This document shows, in pieces, positions 4,398-33,207 of a stretch of 33,207 nucleotides of DNA. This stretch comes from a virus. Each line of letters starts with the position of its first letter. Position 1 is the first letter of the stretch. The position numbers and the translations under genes are program-made. The stretch spans positions 1 through 33,207 of the IMG/VR virus record IMGVR_UViG_3300010296_003689; one strand, 5' to 3'. The notes below the pieces were generated by a model that saw only the letters and a program-made list of their open reading frames with translations, was not told where the DNA came from and did no database searches.

Positions 4398-5537
4398 ATG
4401 GAGCAGGTAACTGAGAAAATTTTAAAAATAGACGAGTTTTTGCAGGATAGAATATTGGTAGATAAGATAGATAACAATATCTCAAAAATCGAAAAAAAAT
4501 TCATCATGTCTATTTTGACGGAGGTGGCTTTTTTTAAAAAAATGCTAAACGAGAACGAATCTTCCAGCACTTTACAACTTATTGATTCAAATTTGGAGTA
4601 TGATTCCTACAGTTTCAGAAACAACGACACAAAATACATACTAAAGATTACCGAAGACGACGAAGATGGCGTTCTTAAAAAAGAATTCGATAATCTTACA
4701 GAAATTGATGAACTGAATATATCCCCAAAAGCCCTCCACTTTGAAACCCTAGACTTTGGTAGAAAAATAGATGTTCTCATAACCTCTTTTGAACACGGCT
4801 TATGTTTTAAAGATTTATCTAGGTCGGATTTGCTTTTCAACATTAGAACATTGGCAAACACCCTGTCTTATTTGCACGAAAGCACTGTTGTTAACCAATT
4901 ACCAGAAACACAAGAATTCAAGGAAGAATTTTTTGCTTTAACAAATTACAAAGAAAACTTGCCAGAAGACAGATACCAAGGTTTGGAGAATAGCCAAGAA
5001 TTTCTCAGCCACCTACCCGTTTTGGATGCTTTAAAGCAATCAGTTAATGAAAATTTGGCGACCCTACCCAAAAACCAAATTTGTCTCAATCATACAAACC
5101 TTTTCTCTTCCAGAATAATGTATAGAGACAAAATGATTAAATTCATCAATTTTCAATATGGGAAAAAAATAGACTGTCTTTGGGATGTTGCTTTTACTAT
5201 ATATTATTTAGGTTTAAACAATAACCCTAAAAATGAAAAAGCGTTTTTAGAACAGTATTTAAAAAGTCACGATAAACTCGACATGACTGAAGTGGAGTTT
5301 TTAGAAAAAGTATCTATTTACAAAAACGCAGCCTTTAAGCTTATTTTGATTAAATTGCTTTGCAGCTACTTCTATGAAGCTATTATCTTTGGCACGGATA
5401 GGCCTTCCAAATTTGTAGAAATTGTAACTGTTTATGAAAGTATTAGAGATGATTTAGCAAAAGCTAAAGACGCCTACTTAATTCAAAGCGGGGCCATCAA
5501 AACAGTTGATGAAATTTTTAATGTTTATTTTAAATAG
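4398..5537 (+). CDS. APH/choline-kinase-fold protein, probably catalytically dead
   Basis: The 379-residue protein has the layout of aminoglycoside/choline phosphotransferases. Residues 68-130 look like a kinase N-lobe, with a candidate ATP-binding Lys83 in TKYILKIT, a following acidic helix, and a hinge-like VLITSFEHG. Residues 228-270 align with the APH catalytic stretch: family HGDLxxxN is here HTNLFSSR (232-239), and the metal-binding IDW/IDF is FINFQYG (249-255). Thus the catalytic Asp is Asn234, the Asn is Arg239 and the second Asp is Asn251, while flanking positions (LWDVAF resembling PxxDLA) are kept. This suggests a pseudokinase that binds rather than phosphorylates. It is alone on the plus strand between the fibre genes and the tail-tip genes, with an 8-nt convergent overlap with J'. 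Its role is unknown. Confidence 0.55.
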   Translation: MEQVTEKILKIDEFLQDRILVDKIDNNISKIEKKFIMSILTEVAFFKKMLNENESSSTLQLIDSNLEYDSYSFRNNDTKYILKITEDDEDGVLKKEFDNLTEIDELNISPKALHFETLDFGRKIDVLITSFEHGLCFKDLSRSDLLFNIRTLANTLSYLHESTVVNQLPETQEFKEEFFALTNYKENLPEDRYQGLENSQEFLSHLPVLDALKQSVNENLATLPKNQICLNHTNLFSSRIMYRDKMIKFINFQYGKKIDCLWDVAFTIYYLGLNNNPKNEKAFLEQYLKSHDKLDMTEVEFLEKVSIYKNAAFKLILIKLLCSYFYEAIIFGTDRPSKFVEIVTVYESIRDDLAKAKDAYLIQSGAIKTVDEIFNVYFK

Positions 5538-20837: not shown

Positions 20838-21343
20838 ATAAAAAGATTTTAAAAAAATTCAAACTACTTCCTTTGAAAAGAGATCAAGAAGAAGAAATTA
20901 AAAATCAACTTTTTGAATTTCAGAGAGAAGCTGATATAAAAGCCGTTTCCGTAGCATTTAAAAATTTAAAAAGCTCCAGAAGCAAAAATAAGATGTTAGA
21001 AAATGATTTTGGTCAATTCTTTGGTAAAGAAGATGTAAAATATGTTGCTATAGACGAAGAAAACGGAGAAATGGCTTGTTTTTTTTCTTTTTCTGTCGAA
21101 AATGGTGAGGCTAATTTCAAAATGGCCTTGAAAAATCCAGAATATGTTTTTGGACCCACTATAATAGAAGCGGCAAAAAAAATGATATCTTTAATGGCGT
21201 GTAAATATAATTTGAAAAAAATGTATTCGCTTTTATACAGAAGAAACAATTACCAAAATTATAAACGTTTCATAGTAAAACACTTAAATGCGGAGATAAT
21301 AACAGATGGAGAAAAAATCACAACAATCGAATATAAATTATAA
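20834..21343 (+). CDS. GNAT-like protein, second of a tandem pair
   Basis: The 169-residue product is a paralogue of the preceding gene. Corresponding blocks are LFEFQREADIKAV with LDFQEKAKVGHW, KYVAIDEENGEMACFFSF with KYTMLDEKEIPFGFAFFT, FKMALKNPEYVFGPTIIEAA with LQFGFKNNDYFLNSAMLNIF, and HLNAEIITDG with VFNAEIVTKD. The fold prediction (GNAT-like) is by pattern only, and the acetyl-CoA loop is again not evident. It overlaps its upstream neighbour by 4 nt and the polyamine gene by 38 nt, so the three were probably translated as one unit. A role in modifying polyamines or a tail component is possible but not shown. Confidence 0.6.
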   Translation: MNKKILKKFKLLPLKRDQEEEIKNQLFEFQREADIKAVSVAFKNLKSSRSKNKMLENDFGQFFGKEDVKYVAIDEENGEMACFFSFSVENGEANFKMALKNPEYVFGPTIIEAAKKMISLMACKYNLKKMYSLLYRRNNYQNYKRFIVKHLNAEIITDGEKITTIEYKL

Positions 21344-22547
21344 AAGGTTTTCGTCTTACGATCAATACATCAATCTACACTTTCCCGTAGAAAGAAAAGT
21401 CGCCCACAAAACATCAGACAACAATGGAAAATCTGAGCCTATTGATATAGAAATATATGATGTAAAAAATCTAGGTAGGGCTTTATTAATACAGGGTGAC
21501 ATACAACTACTAGAATCCCATGAATACAAATATCATGAATCCTTTGTTCATATCCCTCTCTCTTTCGTTAGGGAGCCTAAGAAAGTTCTTATTCTTGGGG
21601 GAGGCGATGGCGGCGCAGCTAGAGAAATCCTGAAACATGAATCCGTAGAAGAAATTAAAATTGTAGAGCTTTCTTCAGATGTGGTTGAAATGTGCAAAAA
21701 ATACATACCAAGCGTAGGCTATTCATTAAACGACCCTAAAGTTAAGATTGTATACGATAATGCTTGTGATTGGATTAGAAAAACAAAAGAAAAGTTTGAT
21801 TTGATTTTGATTGATGCTACAGATTTTTGCTCAACCCAAGACCAAGATTCAAGCAAATTTAATTTAAGGGACGAGGAAAATGTATCTTTTTGTCAAAATC
21901 TTCTATCGTCGAAAGGGGTGCTGGTTTATAATGACGATTTCTTTGGAATTAAAGAGCAAAATACAATCAACAGAACTATATATCTGCAAGAGCAATTTAA
22001 TTTTGTGAAGCCTTATAAGATAAACGTTCCGTATTTCTTAGGCGGCGATTATACTTTTATGATATGTTCCAATGAAGTTAATTTAGAAGCGGGAATTTTA
22101 CATACAAAAAAAATCAAAACCAAATTTTTCAATGAAGGTGTTTTAAAGTCTTGTTTCAATTTAGGCGAAAATTTCGATAAAGGAATGCTTAATTATACAC
22201 TGGAAAGAAGTTTAGGAAATACCGTTACAATCGACTTTGTTGGATGCGATTTTGACTTGATAAACAACTTAAACTCTATTAAAGGTATTATGCAGGAATG
22301 TTTGGATTCTGGCGGCTTCAATGCTTTGAATTGCATCAGTCATCAATTTAAACCACAAGGAATAACTATAGCTTTTATATTAAGTGAGTCTCATTTTACC
22401 TGTCATTCTTGGCCCGAATATGGCAGAATTTGTTTTGATATATTTAGCTGCGCAGACCTCGAAAGAACTCAAAAACTTGTAGATAAATTGACTGAATTGA
22501 TTCCAAACGAAGGTATAAAAACAAACAGAATGGAAAGAAAAATTTAA
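21306..22547 (+). CDS. Spermidine synthase - AdoMet decarboxylase fusion
   Basis: Two polyamine enzymes are joined. Residues 1-270 are a SpeE-type aminopropyltransferase: EYKYHESFVHIPL (74-85), VLILGGGDGGAAREILKH (94-111), the acidic IVELSSD, and LIDATD (168-173) for the catalytic aspartates. Residues 295-413 are a prokaryotic SpeD: HQFKPQGITIAFILSESHF (346-364) with the Glu361-Ser362 self-cleavage site that makes the pyruvoyl group, then His367 in CHSWPE and Cys382 in DIFSC. All key SpeD residues are kept, so the protein should decarboxylate AdoMet and transfer the aminopropyl group to an amine. GGAG lies about 10 nt before the ATG despite the 38-nt overlap with the GNAT-like gene. Confidence 0.88.
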   Translation: MEKKSQQSNINYKRFSSYDQYINLHFPVERKVAHKTSDNNGKSEPIDIEIYDVKNLGRALLIQGDIQLLESHEYKYHESFVHIPLSFVREPKKVLILGGGDGGAAREILKHESVEEIKIVELSSDVVEMCKKYIPSVGYSLNDPKVKIVYDNACDWIRKTKEKFDLILIDATDFCSTQDQDSSKFNLRDEENVSFCQNLLSSKGVLVYNDDFFGIKEQNTINRTIYLQEQFNFVKPYKINVPYFLGGDYTFMICSNEVNLEAGILHTKKIKTKFFNEGVLKSCFNLGENFDKGMLNYTLERSLGNTVTIDFVGCDFDLINNLNSIKGIMQECLDSGGFNALNCISHQFKPQGITIAFILSESHFTCHSWPEYGRICFDIFSCADLERTQKLVDKLTELIPNEGIKTNRMERKI

Positions 22548-25390: not shown

Positions 25391-27068
25391 ATAATTCAAA
25401 TTGAGTTTCATCTAGTCCGTTGTGATGATAATTATGGAAGCGTTGAGTTCCATAATGAGGCAAAAATGCCATATCAAAATAACCTTTATGATCCCCTTTG
25501 CCTTCTAAGAAATGTAAGTTATCAATTTCTGGTGAATAGGGTAGGGCCTTATGTACTGCTGGATGATCTTCAATGTAATCAAAAAATTGAGGTTTAGTAA
25601 ATACATATATATCAAACTCAGGATACATTTTCTTCATATTCTTCATTAATGAATTTATCCACAAAACGTCCCCAGCAGATTCTGGCATTACAACCGCAAT
25701 CCTCTTACCAGTATCCAACAAATCTTCCAAATTTATACTTTTATTTTCTTCTGTTTCCCAATTAAAATCATAATCAACTGATGGCATTGCGTCTAGAATT
25801 TCTTCAAGCTTTTTACCAACTGCTTCTGTTGAATAATTTTCAATAGTCCATTCTCGACCCTTTCTACCTATCTGTAAGCGCTTTAAGTCGTCCATTTGCC
25901 AAACCTTTTTTAATTGCTTTGCTATGCTAGATGGATAGGTTGATGCTTTAATAAATTGAGTTCCTGGCTCTCTATATTCAGACCAATCTAGTGGGAAACT
26001 GCCAGATTCTACTGTGGAAGAGTCTTCTCCGCAAGAATAGTTTGTTACAAGAGTTACAAGCTCCGTCATCTTAGCTTCAAAGATAGGGATTTCCATGCCG
26101 CCACTTGTAAATGGATGACAGTAAACATCCATGAGATTATAAATCTCATTAAGTTGCCACTCATTAACCCCCGCCTTAACATTGGTTGTGTTGAGGGATT
26201 TTTCAGTGCCACAAAAACGACAATTTTGCTCTTGGCCTGTAAATGGTCGAACTTCGTATTCGCCACAAGCAGAGCAGAAATAAGTAGTAAGAATATCTTC
26301 TTTATTTAAACCTTTTTCTTCGATAAGTCTTGGAATATCCCAACCTTCAGACCAATGGGTGTGTAGAAGTAATTTTGCTTTTGGGCAATCTTTTTTAAAG
26401 ATTTTAAAACCTTCTAAAATATTTGGGACACTCTTGCGAAGCTGGTTTCTAAAAACAAAACCTATAATAAATTCATCAGACAAGCCAAACTTACTTCTTA
26501 GATTTCTTCTATCTTGATTTGGCAGTCGATAAAAATCTTCTGTATCAACACTGCCATGAAGAGTGCCAACATGATCGTGACCCATTTCTTTTAAATCTCT
26601 TTCAGCAAAAGAAGCCCAAGCATAAAAGTTTTTTGTTTTTGGCGCGGCTTCTACTGCTTGTGGTAAGATTGGTTGACTATCAAGAGTAGTCCAAATCATG
26701 TGGTTGATTTTATCCCACCAAGGTTTATCCCAGTAACCGCCAAAAGCCCAAATATCTTCGCAGCCTATATAAATATCTGGCTTGTATTCTTTGATTGCAG
26801 CGTCAATCGTTTCTGCGCCATAACCAGCCGCACGACCTCTTTGGGGGTCTTTATTTAGCTGTTGGAGCAAAGCTGGATTGTTTGGCAAGGAGCCTTGAGC
26901 TTTCCAGGGTCTAAGTTTTAATGAAGGATGATCCCATTGCATTCCGTTGGCAAATTCAATAACTTCATATTTGCCAGTCTTATGAAGATAGCGAAGAATA
27001 TTTTTCGCATTTTTTCCAAAGCCTGTAAAAGCTTTTGCTCCGTTTGAATGGAAAAGAATCCGTTTCAT
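25380..27068 (-). CDS. GT4 glycosyltransferase with zinc ribbon, fused to GT9 N-terminal half
   Basis: Residues 1-430 form a GT4-type glycosyltransferase: GFGKNAKNILRYLHKTG near the start, VGTLHGSVDTEDFY, the FGLSDEFIIGFVFRNQLRKS strand that opens the donor domain, AKLLLHTHW, and SGGMEIPIFEAKM (about 322-335) for the family's E-x7-E nucleotide-sugar motif. Inserted at about 264-285 is a zinc ribbon, CSACGEYE followed by CRFCGTE. From about residue 455 a new Rossmann start appears (RIAVVMPESAGDVLWINSLM, KNMKKMYPEFDIYVFTKP, DMAFLPHYG), matching the N-terminal domain of GT9 enzymes; the reading frame stops before the second GT9 domain, which is in the gene at 23884-24996. Confidence 0.8.
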   Translation of the reverse strand: MKRILFHSNGAKAFTGFGKNAKNILRYLHKTGKYEVIEFANGMQWDHPSLKLRPWKAQGSLPNNPALLQQLNKDPQRGRAAGYGAETIDAAIKEYKPDIYIGCEDIWAFGGYWDKPWWDKINHMIWTTLDSQPILPQAVEAAPKTKNFYAWASFAERDLKEMGHDHVGTLHGSVDTEDFYRLPNQDRRNLRSKFGLSDEFIIGFVFRNQLRKSVPNILEGFKIFKKDCPKAKLLLHTHWSEGWDIPRLIEEKGLNKEDILTTYFCSACGEYEVRPFTGQEQNCRFCGTEKSLNTTNVKAGVNEWQLNEIYNLMDVYCHPFTSGGMEIPIFEAKMTELVTLVTNYSCGEDSSTVESGSFPLDWSEYREPGTQFIKASTYPSSIAKQLKKVWQMDDLKRLQIGRKGREWTIENYSTEAVGKKLEEILDAMPSVDYDFNWETEENKSINLEDLLDTGKRIAVVMPESAGDVLWINSLMKNMKKMYPEFDIYVFTKPQFFDYIEDHPAVHKALPYSPEIDNLHFLEGKGDHKGYFDMAFLPHYGTQRFHNYHHNGLDETQFELYEN

Positions 27069-27535
27069 TAGTAATTAAAAAACTTAAATAAGAAAAGATC
27101 AAACAAACCCTTTAGAGTTCTAGCTTCTGATAATTCAACACCCATTCCAAACTTTAGAGTAGAGTTTTTTACGACGCTAAATGAGAACGCTTTGTCTCCA
27201 TTCTTTTTTGTATATGGCTTAAAAGAAATTTGGGTCTTGTCATCATTGTAACTATGAAAAGCTGAAAATTCTGTATAGTTTTCAATTGCATTTAGCATTC
27301 CACCAATCTCGTTTTCATTGAGTTTGAAATAAATGTTTTTTTCTGCATCTTTTGCATTTGCACTAAAAGATCCTGTCTTTTTCTTTTCGTCCCATGTCGC
27401 TTGTTTAATTGATTGAATAAGAAAAGTAGGTTTGATTTTGTTTCCTTCTTTATCTGTTTCGACAATTTTAAAAGAAAACGCGCATCCAGTATTATATGAA
27501 TTTGGCTTGTAAATATCGTATTGTTTATGACTCAT
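27068..27535 (-). CDS. Possible ssDNA-binding protein (Whirly/PC4-like)
   Basis: The 155-residue protein begins MSHKQYDIYKPNSYNTGCAF. Two beta-rich segments are visible: CAFSFKIVETDKEG followed by PTFLIQSIKQATWDEKKKTG, then ISFKPYTKKNGDKAFSFSVV with VELSEARTLKGLFDLFLF at the end. The order FKLNENEIGGMLNAIEN, FSAFHSY, long hairpin, and a closing helix resembles phage single-strand-binding proteins with a Whirly/PC4-type fold. This is pattern matching only. A perfect TATAAT lies 5 nt before the ATG. Downstream, the GT4 gene starts at the same base where this frame stops (TAATG), linking the two in one transcript. Confidence 0.4.
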   Translation of the reverse strand: MSHKQYDIYKPNSYNTGCAFSFKIVETDKEGNKIKPTFLIQSIKQATWDEKKKTGSFSANAKDAEKNIYFKLNENEIGGMLNAIENYTEFSAFHSYNDDKTQISFKPYTKKNGDKAFSFSVVKNSTLKFGMGVELSEARTLKGLFDLFLFKFFNY

Positions 27536-27571: not shown

Positions 27572-28228
27572 ATGGCTTATTTAAATCATAATTTGCCCAC
27601 TTTTACTTGTTTTTTGAGGAACGAATACCTTTTTAACCACGAAAAAGGGCATAACGAATATACTCTGTGCGATGTTCATTCAGTAGCATCTATGGAAAAA
27701 AGAGTACCTTTATTTGAGTGTTACTTGGATAATGGAGTGAACTGGACAAGAAGACCAATAACTGCGCTTTGTTGGAAAAAGTGCGACCCAGTTCCTTTGG
27801 AAGAATCAATGTATTGGGATTGTTTCTCTCCATATGTTGATGTAAACGTTAGATTGCGATTAAAAGGATTAAGAGCTATCTTAATTACTCCATCAAACAA
27901 AAGAGAATGGGGCGAATATATGTTTACTATTGATTGGGCTTGGGAGAATAAAAGCGTGTTAGATACAAATTTCTCAGAGCATCCAGAACATAAGTGTGCG
28001 CATTTTTTTAAGATGGAAAATGGCAATTTTTATGCCTATCCAAATAATAGAATAATTTGGCATGATGATGCATGGGTAGAAAAACCGCTTACATCAAATC
28101 CTGGATACCAAATAGACCAAAATGTTTATAGCGTAGAAAACAAAAGAATTAAATACACAGACAATTCTTTTATGACAGAGTTTACTGACCTACACTATAC
28201 AGAAAAAGAATCAAAAAAAGATTCGTAA
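27572..28228 (+). CDS. Hypothetical phage protein, 218 aa
   Basis: Starts MAYLNHNLPTFTCFLRNEYL. There is no signal peptide or membrane segment. The sequence is rich in Trp, Tyr and His, with blocks such as LFECYLDNGVNWTRRPITAL, CWKKCDPVPLEESMYWDCFS, RAILITPSNKREWGEYMFTI and HFFKMENGNFYAYPNNRIIW. The even, mixed composition and conserved-looking aromatic positions indicate a folded beta-rich domain, possibly with metal-binding His/Cys. I do not recognise the family. It sits alone on the plus strand, preceded by a GTGTAA motif, and overlaps the 3' end of the ATE-like gene by 34 nt. Confidence 0.65.
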   Translation: MAYLNHNLPTFTCFLRNEYLFNHEKGHNEYTLCDVHSVASMEKRVPLFECYLDNGVNWTRRPITALCWKKCDPVPLEESMYWDCFSPYVDVNVRLRLKGLRAILITPSNKREWGEYMFTIDWAWENKSVLDTNFSEHPEHKCAHFFKMENGNFYAYPNNRIIWHDDAWVEKPLTSNPGYQIDQNVYSVENKRIKYTDNSFMTEFTDLHYTEKESKKDS

Positions 28229-28959
28229 CTATCTGTCAGGTCTTTGATAGATTTTGTTTGCTCGTCTTTTTCTAATAGATTGTGGTAAGCTGATTCATTA
28301 TCGCTCCAATTTCTACCAGTCCAAAATTCAAATCCTGAAAAAGAGCTTTTGTATTTTGCGTGACTTTCGTAACTTGGGCCAAGATACAAATACTTTAAAC
28401 CCAAGTTTTGAGCAATACATATCTCTTGATAGGTTGAAAGTCTCCCCAAACCTAAAGATGGGTCACCGTAATCCCAGCAAAATTGATGGGCGATTAAACT
28501 TTCGCCAATTTTCTCCGTTATACTGAAAGCTGAGTCATTATATAGAATAAAAATATGATCAGAATTATTGTAAGTGTTTATAAATTCTTCTTTAGACAAG
28601 ATTGATGAAAATTTTTTATAAGTTACATAATTCAAATAAATTTTATACAACTTCTCAAAATCTGGTTCTTTTGTTACTTTAATTAATATATTTCTTTTGA
28701 TTGCTTTGCTCCAGCATCTTCTTTCCGTTTTTGTCTCTATATGTTTGCTTAAATTAATTCTTGTTTGGCGGCTTTGATACCAAATAATCTTGTTTTGTTT
28801 TACGAAGTTTGTATCTTGATTATACCATATACTTGAAGGAGACCAGCCATTATTTAAAGCCTCTTGCTCTTCGTGTTTGTCGAATGTGGCACTAACTAGT
28901 GTATGTATAAAATCAGTATCTGCCTGTTTGCCGCAAATGTGGTCAAAAAATAATTTCAT
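28195..28959 (-). CDS. Aminoacyl-tRNA-protein transferase-like (ATE/Bpt) protein
   Basis: The 254-residue protein matches the layout of arginyl/leucyl-tRNA-protein transferases, which add an amino acid to protein N-termini and so create degradation signals. N-terminal part: EALNNGWSPSS then SRQTRINLSKHIETKTERRC, WSKAIKRN, corresponding to the family's GFRRSG ... CxxCxxxRIPVAxFxxSRSQRRxWKRN. C-terminal part: DYGDPSLGLGRLSTYQEICI, NLGLKYLYLG, KYKSSFSGFEFW, corresponding to DPxxxxxSLGxxxILxQIxxAxxLGLxYxYLGYWIxxxxKMxYKxxFxPxE. The cysteines of the N-terminal cluster are absent (WYQSRQ instead), so the substrate or activity may differ. It starts behind a GTGTAA motif just past the terminator of the dnaE-clp operon. 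Confidence 0.6.
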   Translation of the reverse strand: MKLFFDHICGKQADTDFIHTLVSATFDKHEEQEALNNGWSPSSIWYNQDTNFVKQNKIIWYQSRQTRINLSKHIETKTERRCWSKAIKRNILIKVTKEPDFEKLYKIYLNYVTYKKFSSILSKEEFINTYNNSDHIFILYNDSAFSITEKIGESLIAHQFCWDYGDPSLGLGRLSTYQEICIAQNLGLKYLYLGPSYESHAKYKSSFSGFEFWTGRNWSDNESAYHNLLEKDEQTKSIKDLTDSYESFFDSFSV

Positions 28960-28973
28960 ATTTTTTCTTAAGT

Positions 28974-28983
28974 TATATTACAC
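28974..28983 (-). promoter_or_regulatory. GTGTAA promoter-like motif upstream of the ATE-like gene
   Basis: GTGTAATATA begins immediately after the T-tract of the terminator at 28984-29008 and its core ends 18 nt before the ATG. A terminator directly followed by this motif is strong contextual support for promoter function. Confidence 0.6.
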
Positions 28984-29008
28984 AAAAAAAGGCGGTATTT
29001 CTACCGCC
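28984..29008 (-). terminator. Strong terminator of the dnaE-clp operon
   Basis: A perfect 7-bp GC-rich stem, GGCGGTA and TACCGCC, with a 4-nt loop is followed on the minus strand by seven T residues. The plus strand also has TTTTGTTT after the stem, so it could stop transcription from both sides. It lies just past the stop of the 69-residue gene. Confidence 0.9.
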
Positions 29009-29014
29009 TTTTGT

Positions 29015-29224
29015 TTAGATCTGTGTCGCCCCCATTGAGAGCTTTTGCAAGCTAGACTTTGCAAACTTTCGAACTTGTCGAGAGTTTCGATCTCGCACAA
29101 CCACATATTGTGGAGTTTCGCGAACGAATTGTGCGTTTAGGGTTTCACCCTGCCGAGTTGTAAGGCCGAAGAAACGGCCACGACTCGCGCTGATTGCTTT
29201 TACTATACGGTTTGTCTTCTTCAT
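29015..29224 (-). CDS. Small basic conserved protein, 69 aa
   Basis: Starts MKKTNRIVKAISASRGRFFG. It is basic, with an SH3/Sm-like strand pattern (GRFFGLTTRQGETLNAQFVR, then QYVVVRDRNSRQVRKFAKSS). The shape suggests a small beta-barrel that may bind nucleic acid, but the family is not recognised. Its ATG is 2 nt after the Clp-like stop codon and it ends a few bases before the terminator, so it is the third gene of the dnaE-clp operon. Base composition is richer in GC than its neighbours, suggesting constraint or different origin. Confidence 0.7.
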   Translation of the reverse strand: MKKTNRIVKAISASRGRFFGLTTRQGETLNAQFVRETPQYVVVRDRNSRQVRKFAKSSLQKLSMGATQI

Positions 29225-29226
29225 AA

Positions 29227-30714
29227 TTAAAATCCTATTTTGTTGTGAATTCTTATATTTTGCCCAGATTTGATATTCTCTATGGGTTGATTTAATTTAT
29301 CAGCAAATATAGTGTAAATTATATCCTTGTCAACAATAAAAGTTTGATTTTCTAACTTTTCTCCCCAATCTAGTAATAATTTTTCATATTTTTTTTGAAA
29401 TTTATCAAAATCTTTAGAGTTTGCAAATTCTTTATCTGCAAACATAGCTTCCATATCTTTAGCTTTTTGAGGTCTGACAACATTAATTTTTTTTGTTTTT
29501 GCTCCAGACTCATCCAAAATATCAAAAGCTTTATCTGGAAATTTTTTATCTGGTAGATATTGAGAACAAAGCTGTATAATTAGATCAATAAGATCTTCTG
29601 AGTAATTGACTTGATGATATTTTTCGTAAGAAGTTTTTGCTTTCATTAAGAGTGTTTTTACGTCTTCTTTTGAAGGTTCTGCTACATTTATATTTTCAAA
29701 GCGCCGATCTAATGCAGCATCCTTTTTAAAGTATCTTTTGTATTCTTCTTCCGTGGTGGCCCCTATACAAGAGATTTCCCCTCTTGATAGGGCTGGTTTT
29801 AGTATGTTAGCTAGGTCTAAACCACCTTCAGAATTACCAGAACCAATAATGGTATGGATTTCATCAATAAACAAAATATATTGAGTATTTTTGGAAACGA
29901 AGTCTAAAATATTTTTTATCTTTTCTTCCATTTGTCCTCTGAAGATTGTTCCAGAGATTACTGATGTAATGTCTAGCGCAAGAATTTCTTTATGCAAAAG
30001 GAGGTCTGGACACTCTCTCTGTACTATTTTTTCTGCCATTCCTTCTACGAGTGCGGTTTTACCAACACCAGCCTCTCCTACAAAAATTATATTGCTTTTG
30101 TTTTTTCTAAGCAGGATTTCAAAAGCTCTGTCTATTTCTTTATCTCTGCCGAAAATTTCAAAAGTTCCTCTTTTCATTATTTTTTGATTCAGATTTTCAT
30201 AACAAGAAGAAATAGAATTGGCATCCACTTTTTGAGGTGGCGTACTCGCAGTGTTTTGAGAAACAGATTCAAAACCCTTTGAAATACAATTAAATAAACA
30301 TTGTGAAAGTTTGTCTACATCGATCTCAAGGGATTTTAAAAGTTCTCTAACTTCTTCTCGTGAATCAAGAATTGCGAGAAGTATATGATCAACACCAATG
30401 TATTCATGATTTTTCTCCTCCGCCACTTCTTTGGAAAATTCAATAATCTCAAAAATTTCTAGAGCATATATCTTTTTCTTCCTCTTCGGCTCTTTATATT
30501 GAGAAAGAATCTGATTAAAAGCTTCCGCCAAACCTTCTTGAATTACTTCGCACTGATTTAGAGAAAAGCTTATGTTGACATTCTTTTGATTAAGAATTGC
30601 AGAAATTAGGTGAAAGTCGATAACTTTTAAGTGATTAAATTCATCTGCGATTTTTTGAGCTTCTTCAATTGCGTTTTGCGCACTTGGCGTTAAATTAAAT
30701 TTAGTAAAATCCAT
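29227..30714 (-). CDS. Single-AAA ClpA/ClpC-like ATPase
   Basis: The 495-residue protein has two Clp_N-type helical repeats (residues 1-75 and 80-150: FTKFNLTPSAQNAIEEAQKI and HEYIGVDHILLAILDS), then one AAA+ module equivalent to D1 of ClpA/C: GRDKEIDRAFEILLRK, Walker A GEAGVGKT (213-220), a pore loop GTIFRGQMEEKI with the aromatic kept, Walker B ILFIDEIH (280-287), and arginine finger DAALDRRFE (332-340). The second AAA domain, which carries the ClpP-docking loop in ClpA/C (about 750 residues total), is missing. The last three residues are IGF, the tripeptide that ClpX/A/C use to dock on ClpP, here at the extreme C-terminus. The start codon overlaps the dnaE stop (TAATG). Confidence 0.85.
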   Translation of the reverse strand: MDFTKFNLTPSAQNAIEEAQKIADEFNHLKVIDFHLISAILNQKNVNISFSLNQCEVIQEGLAEAFNQILSQYKEPKRKKKIYALEIFEIIEFSKEVAEEKNHEYIGVDHILLAILDSREEVRELLKSLEIDVDKLSQCLFNCISKGFESVSQNTASTPPQKVDANSISSCYENLNQKIMKRGTFEIFGRDKEIDRAFEILLRKNKSNIIFVGEAGVGKTALVEGMAEKIVQRECPDLLLHKEILALDITSVISGTIFRGQMEEKIKNILDFVSKNTQYILFIDEIHTIIGSGNSEGGLDLANILKPALSRGEISCIGATTEEEYKRYFKKDAALDRRFENINVAEPSKEDVKTLLMKAKTSYEKYHQVNYSEDLIDLIIQLCSQYLPDKKFPDKAFDILDESGAKTKKINVVRPQKAKDMEAMFADKEFANSKDFDKFQKKYEKLLLDWGEKLENQTFIVDKDIIYTIFADKLNQPIENIKSGQNIRIHNKIGF

Positions 30715-33207
30715 TATTTTATTTCAGAAAGTTTGGTATAAATTTTTTCGTCAAGAATGTTAAGCTTTTCGCCAAAAATGATATCTTCGCCCTTACTACC
30801 ATAGACAAAAACTATTTCGCCCTCTTTTGGTTTTTTGCCACCATTATTGAGATAGTTGTCTAATGTATTGGATCTACGATTATTTGCAAGCATAAAATTA
30901 ACTTTCCCAAAGTCATCTTGAATTTCTACTCGCATATACTTGTTCCCATTTCGACTTGTTCTTGATATGCAATCTGTAACTACCCCAACAAGTTTGATCC
31001 TGTCATTATCTGCTATGGATTTGATTTCCAAACTGTTGTATAAGTTATCACAATCTTTAAAAACTTTTTTAATTTCTGTGGAGTGGCTATATCCTAGATA
31101 CTTTCTTTCAAAAAACCAATTCGCAAAGTCTAAATGGTTTTTATTTTTTTCGTATATGTCTTTGTAGTCTTTGTATTTTTTCTTGAAAGTTTCAAATCTA
31201 GATGCTTTCATAATTGGTTTGCCATCGTCAGCTACTCTAGATTCTCGGATAGCGGAGTGAATTGTATTAAGAATATCGTAATTAAACTCGTCGCCAATTT
31301 GAATTACATTTCTTTTTTCTCTTTCTGTCAGAATATTAAAAGATTGAGCTTCTAATACTAAGCGACAACGGTTTGGCGAGTCGTTTGAATTATCACAAAA
31401 AGAATCCATCATTCCCCCTTGAATCAAACCAGACAAAACACCTATATTTATTCCAGACTCTTTGGCGGCTATAAATATATCGTATTTGTTTTGACCAATT
31501 TCTTGGGCTTTTCTAAAGTCGATTAAATTCTCTAGGGTTTTTTCTGAAACTCCCTTGACGCTATTGACGCCATATCTAATGTCTCGACCTTCAATAGCGA
31601 AATTGATGTCGGATTTTGATAAATCTGGAGGTAGAAGTTTTATATTAAACAAGCAAAGCTCTTGGCTGATTAGCGCAATTTCTGCATGAGAATCTGGCTC
31701 ATGTTTTGTCATTTTGAGCAAGCTTAAGAAAAATTCTTTTGGGTATTTAAACTTCAAATAAGTTGTAATTGCCGCCAAAATAGCATAACTAATCGAGTGA
31801 GACTTGTTGAAAGAATAATTAGCGGAATCTTCTGCCACCTTCCACAAAACCTCGCCAACTTGTTTGTCTAAATTATTCTCTTCTATCTTTTGTTCAATCT
31901 TGGCTTTCCAAGCTGGCATTTGATCGACCTTTTTCTTGCCAACAATACGCCTGAGTTGTTCCGACTCATCAAGAGTAAATCCAACCTTGACTGCCATTTT
32001 CATTAGCTGTTCTTGGTATAGTGGAATGCCACCAGTATAAGAGAGAATATCATCAAAGAATTCATTAACAGACTGGAATTCACCACTGCTGGTATAATCA
32101 GCATACACATCCAAATAGTCAAGTGCGCCAGGGCGAGCAATCGCAACAACAGCAGAGAGTTCCTCAAGATTTTTGGGAGAAACTTTTTTACAGACTTTAA
32201 AATTGGTGTCGGCTTCAATTTGAAACAGCCCTTTAGGAGCTTCAATATTTTTAAAGTTTTCATATATCTCTGGGAGTTCTACATTTATATCTTCCATTTT
32301 GATACCTAATTCTTTGCAAGTATCATTAACAACAGAGAGGGTTCTTAGTCCAAGGATGTCAAACTTAACCATCAAAGAGGCTACATCATTCATGTCGTAG
32401 CCAGAAATAAAATTACCATCATTTGTTTTTTGCATGGGCATAACCTCTTCAATATTATAGAAGCTAATTGCAATGCCAGATGGATGAACTCCTGTATTTT
32501 TATTTAATCCTTCTAATTTTTTTGCTATTTTAAATATTTTAGGGTTTTTATCAGCAAACTCTCTGAATTTGTCGCTTTCCTCGTAGGCTTTGTCAAGCTT
32601 AAAAACCTTACCAAACTGCTTTGGAATATGGTTACTTATGACGTTTACTTCGTCTTCTGAAAGCTCCCCAACAATTTTACCACACTCCTTTACACAAAGC
32701 TTACTGCTTAACGTATTAAGTGTGAGAATTTTACAAGTTCTACCCTTGTGTTTTTCTTCAATATATTGAATAACTTCTTGCCGACGATCATAAGAAATAT
32801 CATTGTCTACGTCAGCAAGTAGCGATCCGTCAAGATATGTAACACCATCAACAACTGTTTTCTTAGCACGACTTTTGGATACAAATCTTTCAAAGAATAA
32901 GTCGTATTTAATTGGATCCACATTTGTAACCTTTAGTAGATACAATACTAGTGAACCAGCAGCAGAACCTCGTCCTGGGCCAGTTGGTATTTCATTGTAG
33001 TGACAAAAATTTAAAATATCCCAATTCAATAAAATATAATCAACAAAACCCAAATCTTTCAGAACCGAAAGTTCCATCTTGACTCGGTCATAATATTCTT
33101 TTTTATTATCAAGCTTATCAATGCCCCTTTCTTTAACTCCGCGAAGACACAAAGCTCTCAAAAGATCATAGTTCGAAGATTTTGGATCTAAGTCTAATTG
33201 ATAATAA
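30714..33207 (-). CDS. dnaE: DNA polymerase III alpha subunit (DnaE type), 5' end outside window
   Basis: The frame stays open to the window edge, so the N-terminal PHP region is missing here; about 830 residues are visible. Catalytic-domain landmarks are GPGRGSAAGSLVLYLLK, DPIKYDLFFERF, the active-site Asp pair in ADVDNDIS (family PDFDIDF), VHPSGIAIS, and VKFDILGLRTLSVV with the third Asp. Tail features are the helix-hairpin-helix-like INIGVLSGLIQGGMMDSF and an OB fold (IKLVGVVTDC, RVEIQDDFGKVNFML). The order PHP-catalytic-OB is DnaE-like rather than PolC-like. It is the replicative polymerase of the phage if functional, and all three visible catalytic Asp are kept. It is coupled to the Clp-like gene downstream. 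Confidence 0.92.
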   Translation of the reverse strand, partial: YYQLDLDPKSSNYDLLRALCLRGVKERGIDKLDNKKEYYDRVKMELSVLKDLGFVDYILLNWDILNFCHYNEIPTGPGRGSAAGSLVLYLLKVTNVDPIKYDLFFERFVSKSRAKKTVVDGVTYLDGSLLADVDNDISYDRRQEVIQYIEEKHKGRTCKILTLNTLSSKLCVKECGKIVGELSEDEVNVISNHIPKQFGKVFKLDKAYEESDKFREFADKNPKIFKIAKKLEGLNKNTGVHPSGIAISFYNIEEVMPMQKTNDGNFISGYDMNDVASLMVKFDILGLRTLSVVNDTCKELGIKMEDINVELPEIYENFKNIEAPKGLFQIEADTNFKVCKKVSPKNLEELSAVVAIARPGALDYLDVYADYTSSGEFQSVNEFFDDILSYTGGIPLYQEQLMKMAVKVGFTLDESEQLRRIVGKKKVDQMPAWKAKIEQKIEENNLDKQVGEVLWKVAEDSANYSFNKSHSISYAILAAITTYLKFKYPKEFFLSLLKMTKHEPDSHAEIALISQELCLFNIKLLPPDLSKSDINFAIEGRDIRYGVNSVKGVSEKTLENLIDFRKAQEIGQNKYDIFIAAKESGINIGVLSGLIQGGMMDSFCDNSNDSPNRCRLVLEAQSFNILTEREKRNVIQIGDEFNYDILNTIHSAIRESRVADDGKPIMKASRFETFKKKYKDYKDIYEKNKNHLDFANWFFERKYLGYSHSTEIKKVFKDCDNLYNSLEIKSIADNDRIKLVGVVTDCISRTSRNGNKYMRVEIQDDFGKVNFMLANNRRSNTLDNYLNNGGKKPKEGEIVFVYGSKGEDIIFGEKLNILDEKIYTKLSEIK

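Follow-up and report, generated by a model that had tools for sequence, protein, structure and literature searches.

The closest described relatives of the viral gene analysed here are the ATE1/Bpt aminoacyltransferases (PF04376 plus PF04377). The CX2CXnCC metal site is strictly conserved in ATE1; in the yeast enzyme this cysteine motif binds zinc and shapes the substrate cleft, with a residue from between the cysteines touching the tRNA terminus (A77), and in the ATE1-tRNA structure a helix enters the acceptor-stem groove (PMC10115844). More loosely similar are Aat, FemX, MprF and the streptothricin-type Sbb17/Sba18, which share a dupGNAT core and whose known members use aminoacyl-tRNA. We analysed a viral DNA of 33,207 nucleotides (IMG/VR record IMGVR_UViG_3300010296_003689; the whole stretch is called the window), which by its gene content belongs to a tail-fibre-J/DnaE phage background and carries an ATE-like gene, a convergent neighbour termed c1 and a nearby Clp-like gene. 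Our best explanation, to which we assign a probability of about 55%, is that the ATE-like protein is a virus-specific aminoacyl-tRNA-dependent transferase that works as a two-gene modification module with c1 or, in a derived clade, with a small protein termed SM, and not with the nearby Clp-like unfoldase. The genes at the centre of this reading are the following.

28195..28959, minus strand: predicted ATE-like aminoacyl-tRNA-dependent transferase, 254 amino acids, of a virus-specific branch without the CxxC/CC motif
27572..28228, plus strand: c1, 218 amino acids, phrog_3704, conserved partner of the ATE-like gene, with SH3/Tudor-like beta barrels predicted at low confidence
28195..28228, no strand assigned: tail-to-tail overlap of c1 and the ATE-like gene, 34 nucleotides, present in 7 of 7 dereplicated members of the window clade

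A complete ATE-type fold without the ATE1 metal site

The C-terminal half of the ATE-like protein matched the Pfam family ATE_C with 29.5 bits (cut-off 25, E 1.2e-6), and ATE_C was found again in a genome search with 31 bits. Against the NCBIfam arginyltransferase models the best score was 33.9 bits, far below the equivalog cut-off of 252. An AlphaFold2 model built from 40 aligned sequences reached a predicted local distance difference test score (pLDDT) of 87.5 and a predicted template modelling score (pTM) of 0.85. When this model was searched with Foldseek, the top 32 matches were all human or yeast ATE1, with E values down to 5e-8; next came other transferases that depend on aminoacyl-tRNA, namely MprF/L-PGS, FemX, Aat and the peptide synthase Sbb17. 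VIA-align superposed the model on human ATE1 with a Z score of 16.3 over 220 residues (root-mean-square deviation 4.1). The Z scores of MprF and FemX tie with that of ATE1, mostly over the GNAT core of about 150 residues, and among Aat, FemX, MprF and Sbb17/Sba18 only about 145-160 residues align well (2-3 A), with no sequence-family match. Since the structural matches to ATE1 span residues 1-254 of the model, covering the N-terminal domain as well as the GNAT core, the protein has a complete ATE-type fold and a plain GNAT was ruled out.

The viral family was aligned with four Bpt proteins of bacteria, which came from plasmid records that were either annotated or translated, and nine positions proved conserved in both: G38, R67, Y111, G172, Y192, Y203, K204, E211 and W218. 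Across the viral family about 44 positions were conserved at 80% or more, including the YK...E...W block shared with Bpt. Identity to Bpt was only 14-17%, and the viral proteins differ further from ATE1/Bpt in having the motifs MKxFFDHI and WTGRxW of their own and in being encoded by a gene that overlaps its partner gene. The N-terminal CxxC...CC is absent: the cysteines of the window protein lie only at positions 9, 82, 161 and 181, and W60, invariant in all viral members, occupies a Bpt cysteine position. The helix matching the tRNA-acceptor helix of ATE1 is basic in all 40 members, with a mean net charge of +4.8 over about 18 columns, against a mean of -4.4 for the whole proteins of the same 40 sequences. 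Because this basic helix is retained while the cysteine motif is lost, we infer that aminoacyl-tRNA binding has been kept and the acceptor side changed. The open reading frame is clearly a real, divergent relative within the ATE_C/dupGNAT superfamily; it does not belong to canonical ATE1/Bpt, since the metal motif is gone and the scores lie far below the equivalog cut-offs. A first-pass annotation made from the letters of the sequence had placed the ATE-like gene and a Clp-like gene at the positions given here and had recognised in the former an ATE/Bpt relative with a well-kept C-terminal GNAT-like half and lost N-terminal cysteines, all of which was borne out, as was its proposed structural comparison with ATE1, in which the whole model aligned and the tRNA-acceptor helix proved basic.

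The same comparisons bear on the nature of the acceptor, which might be an amine other than a protein N-terminus (of a nucleotide, a DNA base, a lipid or a small molecule), as in other dupGNAT transferases. The fold scores nearly as high against MprF (lipid), FemX (peptidoglycan) and Sbb17/Sba18 (antibiotic), the acceptor-side cysteine motif of ATE is gone, and in several phages c1 and the ATE-like gene lie inside nrdA-nrdB or beside replication genes. We nevertheless consider such an acceptor unlikely, as the sequence kinship in Pfam and NCBIfam is specifically to ATE/Bpt, which act on proteins, and ATE1 is the only match that aligns full-length, including the N-terminal domain, at top rank. 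Retention of the basic acceptor-stem helix together with loss of the cysteine motif would also fit a protein that slows host translation by binding aminoacyl-tRNA, or hydrolysing it, with no specific acceptor, or a catalytically dead scaffold for c1. This we regard as very unlikely: a family this deep that keeps roughly 44 positions at 80% or more shows more conservation than a dead scaffold would lead one to expect.

Search of IMG/VR yielded 14 relatives of the ATE-like protein with a single sequence and at least 80 with an alignment. The protein had no match among 38,880 PHROGs, nor in 50,697 phage records, in which the viral ATE family was seen only in two Acinetobacter-derived ones. A pattern scan of about 85,000 cellular genomes, which sees only relatives sharing the viral motifs, found none. 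As far as could be seen from these sequence searches, the family thus appears to be viral only, being found here in viral contigs alone, and no earlier report of a phage ATE/Bpt branch was found in the literature searched.

c1 is the constant neighbour of the viral ATE genes

Pairing was counted over 41 dereplicated ATE loci. c1 adjoins the ATE-like gene in 28 of them and lies near it in one more. The two genes are co-directional with c1 first in 19 loci and with the ATE-like gene first in 2; the 7 convergent loci, with the 34-nucleotide overlap, make up the window clade. Most gaps between co-directional pairs were -1 or -4, as is usual where translation is coupled. The pair occurs in several phage backgrounds, siphovirus-like ones among them: the tail-fibre-J/DnaE background of the window, an NrdA/DnaB/primase background, a helicase/primase background, nrdA-c1-ATE-nrdB operons and a 347-kb jumbo phage. 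In the cultured phages HTVC008M and Mosig, which have no ATE-like gene, c1 stands between nrdA and nrdB, and for this reason the ATE-like gene appears to have been added beside a pre-existing c1.

The window c1 belongs to phrog_3704 (4e-48), a family present in 112 phage records, many of them labelled PurM or ferredoxin, and known from cyanophages and pelagiphages under these names (T4-GC 171). In contrast to these labels, c1 matched nothing of PurM or ferredoxin type, whether among Pfam and NCBIfam profiles or among PDB sequences and folds. No AIRS/PurM profile of Pfam or NCBIfam matched c1 of the window, HTVC027P or P-SSM4, and none matched that of the jumbo phage contig L034 in Pfam or that of L013 in NCBIfam; likewise, no ferredoxin profile of Pfam or NCBIfam matched, nor did a ferredoxin fold. 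Phage 'purM' is therefore probably misnamed, although a study of 82 pelagiphage genomes counted it in 45% of them as a gene of purine biosynthesis (PMC9599517). Further copies of this gene, which is labelled PurM and, in RefSeq/PHROGs, ferredoxin, were seen at L098, L102, L103 and L106. The c1 model is of moderate quality (pLDDT 72.8, pTM 0.71), and its best fold matches are tandem Tudor/SH3-like barrels, weak ones (Foldseek E 0.03; Z 7.4, with a warning from the tool that the match may be mere arrangement), so that an SH3/Tudor-like fold is a lead only.

Partner swap and cassette exchange

A nested clade of shorter ATE-like proteins (about 222 amino acids) has no c1; its downstream neighbour is SM, a protein of 65-80 amino acids. 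In a search started from SM, an ATE-like gene was adjacent in 65 of 74 scorable loci, and in all 65 paired loci SM directly follows it with an overlap of 11, 4 or 1 nucleotides. Six-frame searches confirmed SM at loci where open reading frame calling had missed it. An IQ-TREE tree rooted with Bpt placed the c1-linked ATEs at the base and the SM-linked clade within them; on this tree c1 is the older partner and SM its replacement. Fusions of c1 with ATE or of ATE with SM were ruled out: in the long ATE open reading frames that were inspected, the extra length is an in-frame extension at the upstream end and holds no homologous domain.

The gene order Clp, (69-amino-acid open reading frame), kinase-like gene, c1, 155-amino-acid gene and glycosyltransferase is shared by phages syntenic with the window, some of which have the ATE-like gene and others not. 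The 155-amino-acid gene served as a syntenic marker.

27068..27535, minus strand: 155-amino-acid protein flanking c1, 66-92% identical in the allele-swap comparison

Between one phage with the ATE-like gene (L307) and one without it (L311), Clp is 72%, the 155-amino-acid protein 92% and the glycosyltransferase 82% identical, whereas c1 is only 25% and the kinase-like gene 49% identical. The c1 of L307 is instead 91% identical to that of an unrelated phage, L006, and the syntenic phages without ATE share c1 among themselves at 93-98%. As c1 diverges (25%) between flanks of 72-92% identity, the ATE-like gene and its own c1 were exchanged together, replacing a divergent c1. The two very different c1 alleles (25% identical) occupy one syntenic locus (L301, L311, L314 and L319 versus L307, L285 and the window), each near-uniform across diverged phages. 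This is a rapidly exchanged cassette, of a kind that might be expected of exclusion or anti-defence genes.

The kinase-like gene resembles APH kinases (PF01636, 4e-5). In the window it lies among tail genes at 4398-5537 on the plus strand, and in relatives it is directly upstream of the ATE-like gene (L001:8751-10001). It is among the fastest-diverging genes of the locus, with 23-49% identity between syntenic phages.

The nearby Clp-like unfoldase is not the conserved partner

The first-pass annotation had raised as possible a phage-controlled route in which the ATE-like enzyme tags proteins and the neighbouring Clp-type ATPase unfolds them. The features of the region between and around the two genes are listed below.

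28987..29012, minus strand: terminator-like hairpin of 11 bp between the Clp operon and the ATE-like gene
29015..29224, minus strand: 69-amino-acid conserved small protein between Clp and ATE, function unassigned
29227..30714, minus strand: Clp-like unfoldase with Clp_N and a single AAA+ ring (D1 only), 495 amino acids, directly downstream of dnaE
29230..29238, minus strand: C-terminal Ile-Gly-Phe codons of the Clp-like gene, kept in 35 of 35 complete D1-only relatives
30714..33206, minus strand: DnaE-like DNA polymerase III alpha subunit, open at the window end, given as context

Like ClpA, ClpB and ClpC (Hsp100), the Clp-like protein has Clp_N and a complete D1, and it keeps Walker A (GEAGVGKT), Walker B (LFIDEIH) and an invariant arginine pair (R337/R338), so the motifs named in that annotation are indeed intact, and the terminator it placed between the two genes corresponds to the 11-bp hairpin. 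A promoter scan gave as many promoter-like matches as shuffles would (13 versus 13.6 expected) and so speaks neither for nor against the different promoters that the annotation assigned to the two genes. The annotation had made no mention of the 69-amino-acid open reading frame between the genes, of the single-ring nature of the Clp-like protein or of the overlap with convergent c1. Unlike Hsp100 proteins, the Clp-like protein has no D2 ring: the profile match stops short of D2, a second ring did not show when the protein was aligned with full-length phage relatives, and the two-ring arrangement of ClpA/ClpC with a ClpP loop in D2 is thus not present. Those full-length relatives carry D2 with MGF at the ClpP-loop position. 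Among D1-only relatives, found starting from six aligned Clp copies, IGF stands at the end of all 35 complete ones with at most two further residues, and the flanking residues vary (window, L285-L320). IGF/IGL is the ClpP-docking motif of ClpX/ClpA. By analogy, the C-terminal IGF resembles this motif and might allow docking on host ClpP, a testable idea; alternatively, it may be what is left of the D2-start motif VIGQ.

Co-occurrence did not bear out the joint route, and the failure to co-occur that the first-pass annotation had named as refuting it was largely what we observed. An ATE-like gene lay within the fetched flank of only 7 of 36 D1-only Clp relatives, and none was found beside this Clp outside the window clade. 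Conversely, among the first 14 ATE relatives this Clp was present only in the two closest. The near-identical contigs L068 and L069, of the other ATE clade, have a distant Clp-like open reading frame nearby (130 bits). Clp_N proteins were no rarer in c1 phages without ATE (9 of 17) than in ATE phages (6 of 22). On these counts the functional link between Clp and the ATE-like gene was rejected.

The N-degron route behind this proposal, in which a destabilising residue is added to protein N-termini and ClpS hands the products to the ClpAP of the host or the Clp of the phage for unfolding and degradation, draws on the ATE/Bpt kinship and would be open to a phage without Clp, since host ClpS-ClpAP is usable. 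The most Bpt-like viral ATE, in L034 (70 bits to the arginyltransferase model), comes from the 347-kb jumbo phage, in which ClpS and ClpP are encoded too. On the other side, Clp co-occurs with the ATE-like gene in one phage clade only, the phage Clp has no second ring, the conserved partners of ATE are c1 and SM, and ClpS was found in 1 of about 20 ATE records; we therefore hold this route to be quite unlikely. Apart from this jumbo phage, ClpS was not found in the window or in the ATE records searched, which are fragments, and host ClpS may serve. Phage ClpS/ClpP as a general accompaniment of ATE was accordingly dismissed. In the jumbo phage itself (L202:8500-8799, minus strand, and L203:6775-7350, plus strand, both on the 347-kb contig of L034) ClpS (PF02617, 45.6 bits) occurs along with ClpP, a GroEL-like protein and c1; ClpS and ClpP were already known in jumbo phages (PMC7824862). 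A joint tagging and unfolding route is possible there, in the only genome where N-degron tagging seems plausible, but it is not what the window shows.

No tRNA genes were found in the window. The C-terminal third of a 413-amino-acid protein (21306-22547, plus strand) resembles S-adenosylmethionine decarboxylase (phrog_3125, residues 301-412); the N-terminal stretch of about 300 residues has no PHROG match.

A putative two-component modification module

We thus favour a viral aminoacyl-tRNA-dependent transferase that is paired with c1 or SM. In the mechanism we propose, the ATE-like protein probably binds the acceptor stem of host aminoacyl-tRNA and would pass its amino acid on to an acceptor amine, most probably that of a protein, with c1, or SM in the derived clade, as the acceptor or as the subunit that selects it. 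A fuller version is tentative, and we would put it at clearly less than an even chance: a viral two-component tagging system in which an ATE without a metal site is joined by a swappable small beta-barrel partner (c1/SM) that chooses or is the acceptor, the cassette having spread among unrelated aquatic phages and modifying host or phage molecules.

Several points weigh against the reading that we favour. As the motif that shapes the ATE1 substrate cleft and contacts tRNA A77 is absent, the donor or the acceptor may differ. c1 lacks an adjacent ATE in 69 of 80 c1 loci; being far more widespread than ATE, it has its own function. Neither c1 nor SM stands beside the ATE-like gene in four lineages (L007, L008, L059 and L091). 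c1 and SM share GxFxxYxxxxI in the same register, but no significant similarity was found between them (hhalign E 0.055-0.093), and we do not claim them as one family. Finally, the sets obtained by sequence search hold near-duplicates.

Two of the four lineages without c1 or SM, L059 and L091, have in common a different convergent neighbour with the motif SFGxxPPCPYARQF. In L059, an upstream open reading frame that resembles an amidinotransferase by eye (no Pfam match) overlaps the ATE-like gene by 4 nucleotides. The positions concerned are L059:3069-4004 (plus strand) and 4750-5457 (minus strand) and L091:4719-5243 (minus strand).

The gene known as 'purM', widely counted as a phage metabolic gene, probably carries the wrong name, and with its invariant C-terminal IGF the D1-only Clp is a separate test case, that of a minimal phage unfoldase with possible docking on host ClpP. 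If the ATE-like protein is active, a virus would here be drawing on charged tRNA for a purpose other than translation, the modification of other molecules, and the partner gene would offer a genetic handle on it.

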